From the NCBI GenBank assembly GCA_913020235.1, contig CAJWBT010000042.1, positions 1 through 11,189 of the forward strand: DNA of 11,189 nucleotides, given 5' to 3'. Position 1 is the stretch's first letter, and every line of letters starts with the position of its first letter. This stretch comes from an uncultured Chloroflexota bacterium. Lineage in GTDB: Bacteria; Chloroflexota; Dehalococcoidia; UBA3495. Positions 1 through 4,520 of this stretch are shown here, piece by piece. Below the pieces are notes generated by a model. It was not told the origin of the DNA, made no database searches, and saw only the letters and a program-made list of their open reading frames with translations. A program made the position numbers and the translations under genes.

Positions 1-142
1 TTCCGCCCCGCTCCTCGTAAGGCGCCTTCTCAAGCACCAGGACCCGCGCCCCCTCCTCCCGGGCTGCCAAGGCGGCGCACATGGCGGCGTTCCCCGCCCC
101 CGCCACGATAACGTCGAAGCGCTCCTCGCCTCTCACGGCCAT
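1..142 (-). CDS. FAD-dependent oxidoreductase, TcuA / fumarate-reductase flavoprotein type (N-terminus only)
   Basis: Only the first 47 codons are in the window; the gene runs off the left edge. They encode a beta-alpha-beta dinucleotide-binding fold: a short beta strand (FDVIV), the glycine motif AGAGNAAMCAALAA at about residues 14-27, and a second strand (RVLVLEKAP) ending in the acidic residue that usually contacts the FAD ribose. The G-N-A-A-x-C-A-A-x-A-A-R-E pattern followed by EKAP and a GG-containing loop resembles tricarballylate dehydrogenase (TcuA) and related succinate dehydrogenase/fumarate reductase flavoproteins more than MerA-type disulfide reductases. The ATG at 142 has a strong ribosome binding site (AAGGAG, 5 nt before the start) and lies 12 nt after the stop of the MerB-like selenoprotein gene, so the two are probably one transcript. 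The substrate cannot be told from this fragment. Confidence 0.8.
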   Translation of the reverse strand, partial: MAVRGEERFDVIVAGAGNAAMCAALAAREEGARVLVLEKAPYEERGG

Positions 143-154
143 GGTGTCTCCTTC

Positions 155-799
155 CTAGAACTCTCCGGCGGCGCGGCGGGACATGTAAGCCAGGGCACCG
201 CGCTCCCGATGCCTCTCCGCGCTGAACCGCTCCACCCAATAAGCCAGCGGCTGAAGGGTCTCTTCAAAGGCAGGGTCGAACCCGGACCAGCTACGGGCGT
301 GCTCTTCCGACTGGAAGAGGTTCATGCCGGCTCAACGGGTGGGGCGGGTCTCGGGTGATCCGCCTACTTCGGCGTTGGTGTAACCCACTATCCCATTCGG
401 GCTGGCCGACACCACCTGCTCATCCCGCATCTCGATGGCGATGGGCTCACCGCAGTCCAGACACGGGGCATCTACACGGACAGTCTTCCCGGGAAACAGC
501 CAGCGGACCGCCAGCGCCTCGAACCCTCATTGGGCGAACCACTTCTGCTGGCCATCCACGGTGATGCGGTACTGGGTGGGCATGTTGTTGAATGGGGCAA
601 AGGAGACGATGTAGTCGGTTCCGGGGTGAAGCCAGGCTGGGATCCCGGAGTTTATCAGGTCGTGAAGCACCTGGCGCCCTTCCTCCAGCGGAAGCCCCAG
701 GCTGGCGGCTAGCTCCGTGTAGTGGGGCGCCCGGCCGGTATCCACGAATCGGCTCATGATGCCGTGAAAGGCCCTGTCAAGCATCGCCAGGTCCGCCAT
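155..799 (-). CDS. MerB-like organometal lyase family protein with two predicted selenocysteines (UGA at codons 91 and 156)
   Basis: A single frame of 214 codons runs from the ATG at 799 (strong AGGAGG site 5-6 nt upstream) to TAG at 157-155, interrupted only by TGA at 529-527 (codon 91) and 334-332 (codon 156). Residues 1-60 look like the winged-helix N-terminal part of alkylmercury lyases; the rest resembles the MerB catalytic domain. In MerB, Cys96, Asp99 and Cys159 cleave the carbon-mercury bond and hold the metal. Here codon 91 is TGA in the context KWFAQ-U-GFEAL, Glu94 takes the Asp99 position, and codon 156 is TGA before AGMNLFQSEEHA, like the Cys-x-x-MerB segment around Cys159. The spacing is 65 residues against 63 in MerB. 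The only cysteines are Cys113 and Cys116 (a CxxC near MerB Cys117). Each TGA has a SECIS-like hairpin after it. Other genes here stop at TGA, so the code is standard. Expected to act in the cytosol on an organometal or organometalloid substrate, not necessarily mercury. I recall a selenocysteine-containing MerB-like family named SaoL in database annotation but cannot check membership. Automated callers would report a 90-residue ORF or a pseudogene. Confidence 0.88.
296..334 (-). promoter_or_regulatory. Bacterial SECIS element for UGA codon 156
   Basis: After the TGA at 334-332 come 12 nt and then a perfect hairpin: CUCUUCC (319-313), loop AGUC (312-309), GGAAGAG (308-302). Below it, GGC (328-326) can pair with GCC (298-296) across an internal loop. 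The loop begins 19 nt after the UGA. This fits the known bacterial SECIS layout: a stem-loop inside the coding region just after UGA, with a small loop containing a conserved G recognised by SelB. The stem is also coding, so its perfect complementarity is notable. Folding was done by eye. Confidence 0.8.
491..529 (-). promoter_or_regulatory. Bacterial SECIS-like element for UGA codon 91
   Basis: After the TGA at 529-527 the RNA can form GGCG (512-509), loop GUC (508-506), CGCU (505-502), extended below by GCU/GGC-type pairs and, across bulges, by GGG (526-524) with CCC (493-491). The loop starts 18 nt after the UGA, nearly the same distance as in the second element, and shares the GUC loop core with it. 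The stem is less regular than at codon 156, so on its own it would be moderate evidence; the match to the other hairpin strengthens it. Confidence 0.6.
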
Positions 800-881
800 G
801 GTTTCCTCCTCTGCTCTGGAAGCAAGTGGGGTCCGTTGACATAATCCTTAGCGCACGCCTTCTCACCCGCCCACCGGCCGC

Positions 882-2492
882 CTAGTGCATATGCTGATGC
901 CCTGCTTCCGCGTCCTTGTTCTTTTCTTCGGTAACAAGTGACTCGGTAGTCAGGACCATGCTGGCGACGCTGGCCGCGTTCTGCAGGGCTATCCGGAGCA
1001 CTTTGGCCGGATCGATTATGCCTTTGGCCACCAGGTCGCCGTAGTTATTGCCCTGTGCGTCGAACCCAAAATTGGGGACCCGGCTCTCGCGCACCTGGTT
1101 CAGCACCACGGCCTCCTCTTGCCCGGCGTTGGAGGCGATTGTCCGCAGGGGCGCCACCAGGGCATGCTTGAGAATGTCTATGGCCGTGGCCGCGTCGCCC
1201 GTTAGATTGAGGCTGTCCAGTGCCGGCAGCGCGCGTACGTAGGCCACCCCGCCACCGGGGACCACGCCCTCCTCGACCGCAGCCTGGGTAGCGGCCAGGG
1301 CGTTTTCCACGCGTCGCTTGCGCTCCTTGAGTTCGGGCTCGGTGGCAGCCCCCACCTTGATAATCGCCACGCCCCCGGACAATTTGGCGAGGCGCTCTTG
1401 GAGTTTCTCCTTATCGTAGTCCGAGGTGGTCTCCTCGATCTGGACCTTGATCTGCTCCTTCCTCGCCTTGATCAGGTCCTGCGAGCCCCTACCTTCAATA
1501 ATCGTCGTCTTGTCTTTGGTGGATTCCACCCTTCTGGCCCGGCCCAGGTCGGCTACGGTAGCCGAGTCAAGCTTGCGGCCCTGCTCTTCAGAGATGATCT
1601 GGCCGCCGGTAAGTACGGCTATGTCCTCCAGCATGGCCTTGCGCCTATCCCCGAAGCCCGGGGCCTTGACCGCCACGCAATTCATCGTACCGCGGAGCTT
1701 GTTCACGACCAGGACGGCCAGAGCCTCCCCGTCCACATCTTCGCCGATGATCACCAGGTTTTTCGAAACTTGCAGGGTCTTCTCCAGCAGTGGCACAAGT
1801 TCGGCGACGGAAGAGATCTTCTTGTCGATGATCAGAATGAAGGGGTCTTCGATGTCAGTTTGCATACGCTCAGGGTTGGTGACGAAGTAGGGGCTGATGT
1901 AGCCTCGGTCGAAACTCATTCCATCGACGTATTCGGTTTCCGACTCGATACCCTTGCCTTCCTCGATGGTGATCACGCCATCTCCGCCGACGCGGTCGAT
2001 GGTATCCCCCAGGAGGTTCCCAATGTCTCGGTCGTTGGCCGAGATGGATGCTATCTGGGCCTTTTGGTCTCGCCCCTCCACGGTAATCGCGTTCTTCTTC
2101 AGCTCCGCCACCAGCACCTCCACCCCTTTGTCGATACCTCGCTTGAGGGCCATCGGGTCGGCCCCGGCGGTCACGTTCTTCATCCCTTCCCGGACGATGG
2201 CCTGGGTCAAGATGGCGGCCGTCGTGGTGCCGTCTCCGGCCGCATCACTGGTCTTCGAGGCGGCCTCTTTTATGAGCTGGGCCCCCATGTTCTGGAAGGG
2301 GTCAGGCAGGTCCACTTCCTTGGCGATAGCCACTCCGTCGTTGGTCACAACCGGAGCCCCCCACTTCTTCTCCAGGATTACGTTCAACCCTTTTGGGCCC
2401 AGTGTGAGCTTCACCGCGTTCGCCACGGCATCGATACCCTGCATCAACGCTCTTCGAGACTCTTCGTCGCGTGTTATCTGCTTTGCCGGCAT
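882..2492 (-). CDS. groL: Chaperonin GroEL (HSP60, 60-kDa subunit)
   Basis: The 536-residue protein is a full-length group I chaperonin, an ATP-driven double-ring folding machine in the cytosol working with GroES. Diagnostic segments are all present: the ATP-binding start [26 protein letters not shown], the phosphate loop [15 protein letters not shown], the apical-domain region [10 protein letters not shown] and later the intermediate-domain GGGVAYVRA and the ATP-pocket segment [20 protein letters not shown]. The start at 2492 (MPAKQI) is preferred: AGGAGG lies 10 nt before it, while the ATG three codons upstream at 2501 sits directly against that site. The C-terminus ends in EAGHQHMH instead of the Gly-Met repeat of E. 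coli GroEL; histidine-rich tails occur in other bacterial GroELs. It follows groES after 38 nt and is probably cotranscribed with it. The gap to the MerB-like gene is 82 nt, with no clear terminator hairpin plus T-run. Confidence 0.98.
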
Positions 2493-2530
2493 TCTTCCCA
2501 TTCCTCCTGCGATCGATAAAACTATATAGC

Positions 2531-2842
2531 TCAGGAAATCTTAGCCAGCACGTCGTTGGCTCCGATGACCAAGAGTTCTTCGTCTTCCACTTGAATCTCG
2601 GTGCCCGCGTACTTGGAGTAGATAATCTTGTCGCCCACCGTGATTCCCACCGCCAGCCTCTTCCCTGTTTTCGAGTACCGGCCGGGACCGACCGCCACCA
2701 CTTCACCTTCCTGGGGCCGCTCTTGAGCCGAATCGGGCAAGAAGATGCCGCCCTTGGTCACGCCCTCCTGTTTTGCGGGCCGAACGACTAGCCGGTCGGC
2801 CATGGGTTTCAGCTGGGATACCGATGAAATACTGATGGTCAT
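2531..2842 (-). CDS. groS: Co-chaperonin GroES (HSP10)
   Basis: The 103-residue protein is the heptameric lid of the GroEL chamber. It has the typical order: an N-terminal strand around [12 protein letters not shown], the mobile loop that contacts GroEL ([19 protein letters not shown]), then [10 protein letters not shown], the [15 protein letters not shown] segment and the C-terminal [13 protein letters not shown]. It carries about ten extra residues before LKPMADR compared with the shortest family members. The ATG at 2842 is supported by GAGGAG 6-7 nt upstream; an in-frame ORF extends far beyond it but is non-homologous and runs antisense to the endonuclease gene. It is the first gene of the minus-strand operon, transcribed from the promoter at 2955-2983. 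Confidence 0.97.
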
Positions 2843-4339: not shown

Positions 4340-4381
4340 CACGAATTGACCCCCACTCCAACTCTCCCCATTCACTAGGCT

Positions 4382-4517
4382 TTGCCTCAAAACTGTCATT
4401 CCGAGGAGCGAAGCGACGAGGAATCTGGTGCGGGGTTCCTCGGTGGCAGCCAAGACCCACCACCCCAGACCCCTCGCTTCACTCGGGGTGACATACTCCT
4501 GAGTGCTTTTGAGGCAA
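4382..4517. repeat. MITE-like palindromic element, about 136 bp
   Basis: The ends are a perfect 11-bp inverted repeat: TTGCCTCAAAA at 4382-4392 and TTTTGAGGCAA at 4507-4517. Just inside lies a second, imperfect inverted pair: the segment at 4394-4422, beginning TGTCATTCCGAGGAGCGAAG, and the segment at 4471-4493, ending CTCGGGGTGACA. The inner motif belongs to the widespread class of 'GTCATTC(C/T)GAG-CGAAGCGA-(G)GAATCT' dispersed intergenic repeats seen in many bacterial genomes, Chloroflexota included. It has no transposase and would be non-autonomous. A target-site duplication is not obvious. Confidence 0.6.
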
Positions 4518-4520
4518 GGT

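Follow-up and report, generated by a model that had tools for sequence, protein, structure and literature searches.

A MerB-like gene with in-frame UGA codons at both catalytic cysteine positions: a putative two-selenocysteine protein from a Chloroflexota bacterium

What might a gene encode whose reading frame is interrupted twice, each time at the codon of a catalytic residue? In an 11,189-nt stretch of DNA from an uncultured Chloroflexota bacterium (here called the window), we describe such a gene, which probably encodes a selenoprotein of the MerB superfamily. MerB is the organomercurial (alkylmercury) lyase, an enzyme cleaving mercury-carbon bonds, and selenocysteine (Sec) is a rare amino acid containing selenium. 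In the protein proposed here, Sec would occupy both active-site Cys positions, be decoded through SelB, tRNA-Sec and hairpins in the mRNA, and serve a MerB-like cleavage of organometals. The reading as Sec is supported by position, conservation, structure, and the machinery found in relatives; the catalytic part of the proposal proceeds by analogy.

A 214-codon frame with a MerB-like fold

The gene lies on the minus strand, its 214 codons running from an ATG at 799 to a TAG at 157-155. A preliminary description of this DNA had reported a frame broken only by two TGAs, and so it is: TGA occurs at codons 91 and 156, with no other stop. The interval it gave, 155..799, stands as well; the strand, which it left unstated, is minus, and the plus strand of the same interval yields an unrelated, broken reading with nothing coherent.

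155..799, minus strand: putative MerB-fold selenoprotein gene, 214 codons plus TAG, Sec at codons 91 and 156
805..810, minus strand: AGGAGG ribosome-binding site, 5 nt 5′ of the ATG
527..529, minus strand: UGA codon 91, read as Sec, at the MerB Cys96 position
518..520, minus strand: codon of Glu94, at the MerB Asp99 position
332..334, minus strand: UGA codon 156, read as Sec, at the MerB Cys159 position

The read-through protein scores 70.5 bits against Pfam MerB (PF03243; cut-off 27), and its top fold matches are MerB chains, with the match spanning nearly the whole chain. It misses the NCBIfam equivalog cut-offs for MerB (NF009710, 45.5 vs. 193 bits; NF033555, 34.4 vs. 200). In alignments with PDB structures, UGA-91, UGA-156, and Glu94 fall where the preliminary description had placed them, at Cys96, Cys159, and Asp99, and Cys113 aligns with Cys117. 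The MerB catalytic triad Cys96/Asp99/Cys159 is not present literally, with UGA, Glu, and UGA in its place; the two sets are analogous in their chemistry without being identical. That random nonsense mutations are an unlikely cause, as was argued earlier, is borne out by a chance of ~4.5e-5 for hitting exactly these two of ~212 codons and by the recurrence of the pattern in 80 homologous loci.

Codons 91 and 156 in relatives

A genome scan returned 136 relatives, of which 80 loci were kept. Codon 91 is TGA in 50 of these and Cys (TGC or TGT) in the other 30, with nothing else seen; at codon 156, each of the 79 loci readable there has TGA, L061 stopping short of it. An in-frame UGA where homologues carry Cys, one criterion for a selenoprotein, is what the alignment presents. 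In a tree built from the window, four Cys/Cys proteins, and 78 of the 80 loci (83 rows in all), a minimum of nine switches between Sec and Cys is needed at codon 91, and a minimum of four at codon 156. Stops at varied positions in relatives, named beforehand as contrary evidence, were not seen: the aligned parts of the 80 loci hold no further in-frame TGA and a single TAG, near the N-terminus of L041. Both Glu94 and Cys113 are present in 80/80 loci, while Cys116 is missing in 12, with Gly in eleven Acidimicrobiia loci and in L077.

Some loci depart from the common architecture. L025 (8001-9107) and ten similar Acidimicrobiia loci carry a C-terminal extension, giving 369 residues in total, and in the one such locus scanned there was no Pfam match beyond MerB. 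In L062 (183-1832) the family similarity is lost after residue 193 and followed by unrelated membrane-protein-like sequence, reflecting an assembly break, a frameshift or a fusion. The genome of L001 holds a second double-UGA copy (L097), with Asp, not Glu, at the 99 position.

Of 786 database homologues, 120 are listed; Trp occupies both positions in 30 of those listed and Cys does so in four, and the majority of the rest end at or just before codon 156. Since TGG was found at neither codon in any of the 80 genome loci, Trp at both positions is best read as a gene-caller product of UGA=Trp. Three database homologues (P0008, P0093, and P0097) have Gly at 91, or Trp at one position only.

We further sampled two classes, whose genomes overlap partly with those of the first set. 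In the class of L001's host, 10/197 genomes carry a homologue, nine of them interrupted by TGA alone, once or twice, and one, at 36% identity, reading Cys/Cys; in that of L040's host, 17/291 do, 16 with two TGA and one as a partial match with one. Viral contigs gave no relative in two tblastn scans. Plasmid records matched 49 times, all below 60% identity, and the ten listed, with identities of 28 to 31%, carry the annotation merB or alkylmercury lyase.

A second clade with paired UGA codons

Searching with the model of SaoL, a MerB-like selenoprotein discussed below, led to a MerB-like frame in genome G040 (L108:1501-2130, plus strand) that defines a second, sister clade (L108/P0123). The clade comprises L108 and L110-L130, and a relative was found in 21/291 genomes of one class, the same draw as for the class of L040's host. 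Like the window gene, this clade has UGA at both catalytic positions (21/21) and the same hairpin geometry, the hairpin 3′ of the second UGA being of the GGUC type (loop GGUC in 20/21); unlike the window protein with its Glu, it has Asp at the 99 position in 21/21. The two are remote (hhalign probability 95.8, 22% identity). With the second clade consistently U/U, paired Sec in MerB-like proteins would therefore not be confined to the window's subfamily. One genome of the clade, G359, shows three TGA and one TAG over its longer match.

Hairpins 3′ of the UGA codons

Each UGA of the window gene is followed by a putative bacterial SECIS (bSECIS) hairpin:

499..515, minus strand: putative bSECIS hairpin of codon 91; 7-bp stem, loop GUC, loop starting 18 nt past the UGA, -7.7 kcal/mol
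302..319, minus strand: putative bSECIS hairpin of codon 156; CUCUUCC-AGUC-GGAAGAG, loop starting 19 nt past the UGA, -9.1 kcal/mol

Both fall within the bSECIS criteria as given in the part of PMC13188914 drawn on here (loop of 3-9 nt, stem of 4-16 bp, G in the first two loop bases, spacing of 16-37 nt, and at most -7.5 kcal/mol). At codon 156, the same holds for 62/80 relatives vs. 134/2659 background codons. The stretch CTC TTC CGG TCG GAA GAG is kept across phyla, wobble positions too, and the conserved bases fold as a 7-bp hairpin with the loop GGUC (AGUC in the window). Measured against synonymous-codon shuffles, folding at this site has a mean z of -2.07 (n = 80), compared to -0.04 in the background (n = 2679). 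Standard pairs make up 99.2% of the stem over 76 distinct rows; with the second clade included, there are 108 distinct rows, 98.9% paired, and 39 cells with both bases of the pair changed.

Support for a hairpin at codon 91 is modest, and weaker than at codon 156. The bSECIS criteria hold for 10/51 of the UGA group and 2/30 of the Cys group, vs. the same 134/2659 in the background. Mean z is -0.84 for sequences with UGA (n = 51) and -0.22 for those with Cys (n = 30), while raw folding energies point the other way (-14.2 with Cys vs. -12.1 with UGA). Codon-level conservation 3′ of codon 91 rises above background in the UGA group only (0.245, background 0.011; Cys group 0.147, background 0.15). 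In the UGA/Cys comparison, standard pairs occupy 95.0% vs. 76.8% of the stem cells, the former barely exceeding shuffles (mean 94.0, maximum 94.96), and with one double-changed cell there is hardly any covariation. Rfam gave no match in the window at the gathering score.

Selenocysteine machinery in the hosts of relatives

A lack of selenocysteine machinery had been named beforehand as a further finding that would count against the proposal. We looked for it in the host genomes of relatives, where SelA scored over its curated cut-off in 71/80 (37/40 and 34/40), SelB in 37/40, and tRNA-Sec in 37/40; controls were over the cut-off in 1, 2, and 5 of 14. Every one of the first 40 genomes had SelA or SelB over the cut-off. 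Within one class, SelA was present in 8/9 gene-bearing genomes vs. 125/197 overall, a comparison that is not discriminating and proves little because SelA is common there and one gene-bearing genome (G208) has no SelA match.

Genomic neighbourhood and mercury context

The gene sits between a chaperonin locus and the edge of the window:

882-2501, minus strand: groEL, upstream of the selenoprotein gene
2531-2842, minus strand: groES-like frame, upstream; named from its translation
1..142, minus strand: start of a FAD-binding oxidoreductase gene, 12 nt past the selenoprotein stop, running off the window

Co-transcription of the selenoprotein and oxidoreductase genes is possible. The 47 residues of the latter that lie in the window match TcuA best among NCBIfam models (60.2 bits, cut-off 369), too short a stretch to name the protein, and no such gene lies near the relatives in the 80 loci. 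Seven window proteins had no match in these loci at 1e-4. A crude ORF caller revealed no gene cluster common to the 80 loci, and Pfam scans of 126 of the relatives' 137 neighbour ORFs found the commonest family in four and none conserved. An intergenic segment of the window (4370-4520) looks by eye like a dispersed repeat, with pairs of complementary 'gaggagcgaagcgacgagg'-type words.

No mer operon was found around the gene. MerA was over the cut-off in 5/40 host genomes and HgcA in 9/40, and the presence of neither explains the gene. With MerA that infrequent and no conserved neighbour, a role in mercury detoxification is without support from context.

Discussion

How could such a protein work? 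The earlier proposal of a MerB-family protein with Sec at both catalytic Cys positions is supported by the interchange of Cys and Sec, by the hairpins 3′ of the UGAs, and by the Sec machinery in relatives' hosts. We propose that each UGA would be decoded by SelB and tRNA-Sec, aided by its own hairpin just 3′. Judged by position, two selenolates take the places of the two MerB thiolates, and a carboxylate is present as in MerB; by analogy, the selenolate pair would grip the soft metal of an organometal, and the protonation that breaks the carbon-metal bond would fall to Glu94 in place of Asp99. Such a MerB-like protonolysis appears the likeliest mechanism, with methylmercury or another organometal or organometalloid as candidate substrate.

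A serious rival, though on balance the less likely one, is that the protein shares the MerB fold and is no lyase, acting instead as a binder of soft metals or selenium, or as a redox protein that cycles its two selenols via a diselenide. Scores under the MerB family cut-offs, a Glu rather than Asp at the place of the proton donor, and the lack of a mer context, with MerA in so few genomes, all agree with this alternative; most catalogued selenoproteins are thought to be redox-active, according to the part of PMC13188914 used here, and a flavoprotein gene comes next in the window, though it is absent there in relatives. A lyase is favoured, however, by the retention of Cys/Sec and an acidic residue at all three MerB active-site positions, by the Asp that the sister clade has throughout, and by a fold match extending over almost the entire protein.

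It is very improbable that the gene belongs to SaoL (NF040728), the MerB-like selenoprotein family of the SAO system, and the suggestion in the preliminary description that this family may already cover it was not borne out. While SaoL is the sole MerB-like entry in a 2026 table of 119 prokaryotic selenoprotein families (PMC13188914, consulted for this table) and NF040728 is one of three models matching the window protein, the match reaches 40.7 bits vs. a cut-off of 140 and covers residues 62-136 only. Against the same model, 12 further proteins of the family or the sister clade reach 24.7 to 50.8 bits (26.6 to 45.3 for ten relatives), and SaoL is over its cut-off in 0/40 host genomes. As to SAO neighbours, those in the window are GroEL and the FAD protein; neighbours of the relatives were surveyed by Pfam only.

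Two further readings have next to no probability. A pseudogene with two nonsense mutations is what conventional annotation, seeing stops at codons 91 and 156, would suggest, but the same two positions without any other TGA in 80 loci, the synonymous-site constraint beside the UGAs, and a frame conserved past both refute it, unless all these loci decayed alike. Equally hard to credit is a genome-wide reassignment of UGA (e.g., to Trp or Gly) in place of Sec: it would account for the listed homologues with Trp at both positions, as UGA=Trp callers give, but not for the absence of TGG from the genome loci nor for the interchange with Cys, and five of nine other window genes read end in TGA, with none containing it internally, so that UGA is not generally recoded.

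Returning to the two-Sec MerB-like protein, if true, this would be an uncommon case of an enzyme in which two selenocysteines work as a pair in the active site. The mechanism of the MerB family is well studied, and how selenium alters the breaking of carbon-metal bonds would therefore be directly measurable. Gene finders usually end the gene at codon 156 or translate UGA as Trp, and surveys that count merB would consequently miss it; estimates of organometal degraders could shift for sediments and for the deep ocean. Genes of this kind are found in several bacterial phyla. A more speculative reading, which we consider rather doubtful, is that MerB-fold enzymes with Sec at both catalytic positions make up a broad, largely mis-annotated group, with at least two divergent clades and a spread over Chloroflexota, Desulfobacterota-type Deltaproteobacteria, Acidimicrobiia, Rokubacteria, Nitrospinota, Poribacteria, and others, whose members would cleave methylmercury or some other organometal found in nature, with no mer operon involved.

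Comparison with known systems

Compared to MerB (PF03243; MerB2, 5c17; R831b MerB, 3f0o and 3f2f), both catalytic Cys codons are UGA in the window gene, Asp99 is replaced by Glu, and there is an extra conserved Cys116; the protein lies below the NCBIfam cut-offs for MerB, and its gene is without a mer operon in the surroundings searched. We found no paper on a two-Sec MerB in the open-access literature searched, and an earlier report elsewhere is possible. The word 'MerB' is absent from the parts of PMC2398784, PMC5029168, and PMC12013277 covered by a word search, and an 'alkylmercury lyase MerB-like protein' is listed, without a motif, in the portion of PMC9312934 drawn on here. SaoL shares with the window protein its membership of the MerB superfamily and its nature as a selenoprotein. 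According to the same part of PMC13188914, however, SaoL has one Sec, placed in a CU motif, whereas the window protein has two, with R-U-A at residues 155-157 and no Cys before U156. The sections of that paper used here count different Sec positions as separate subfamilies.
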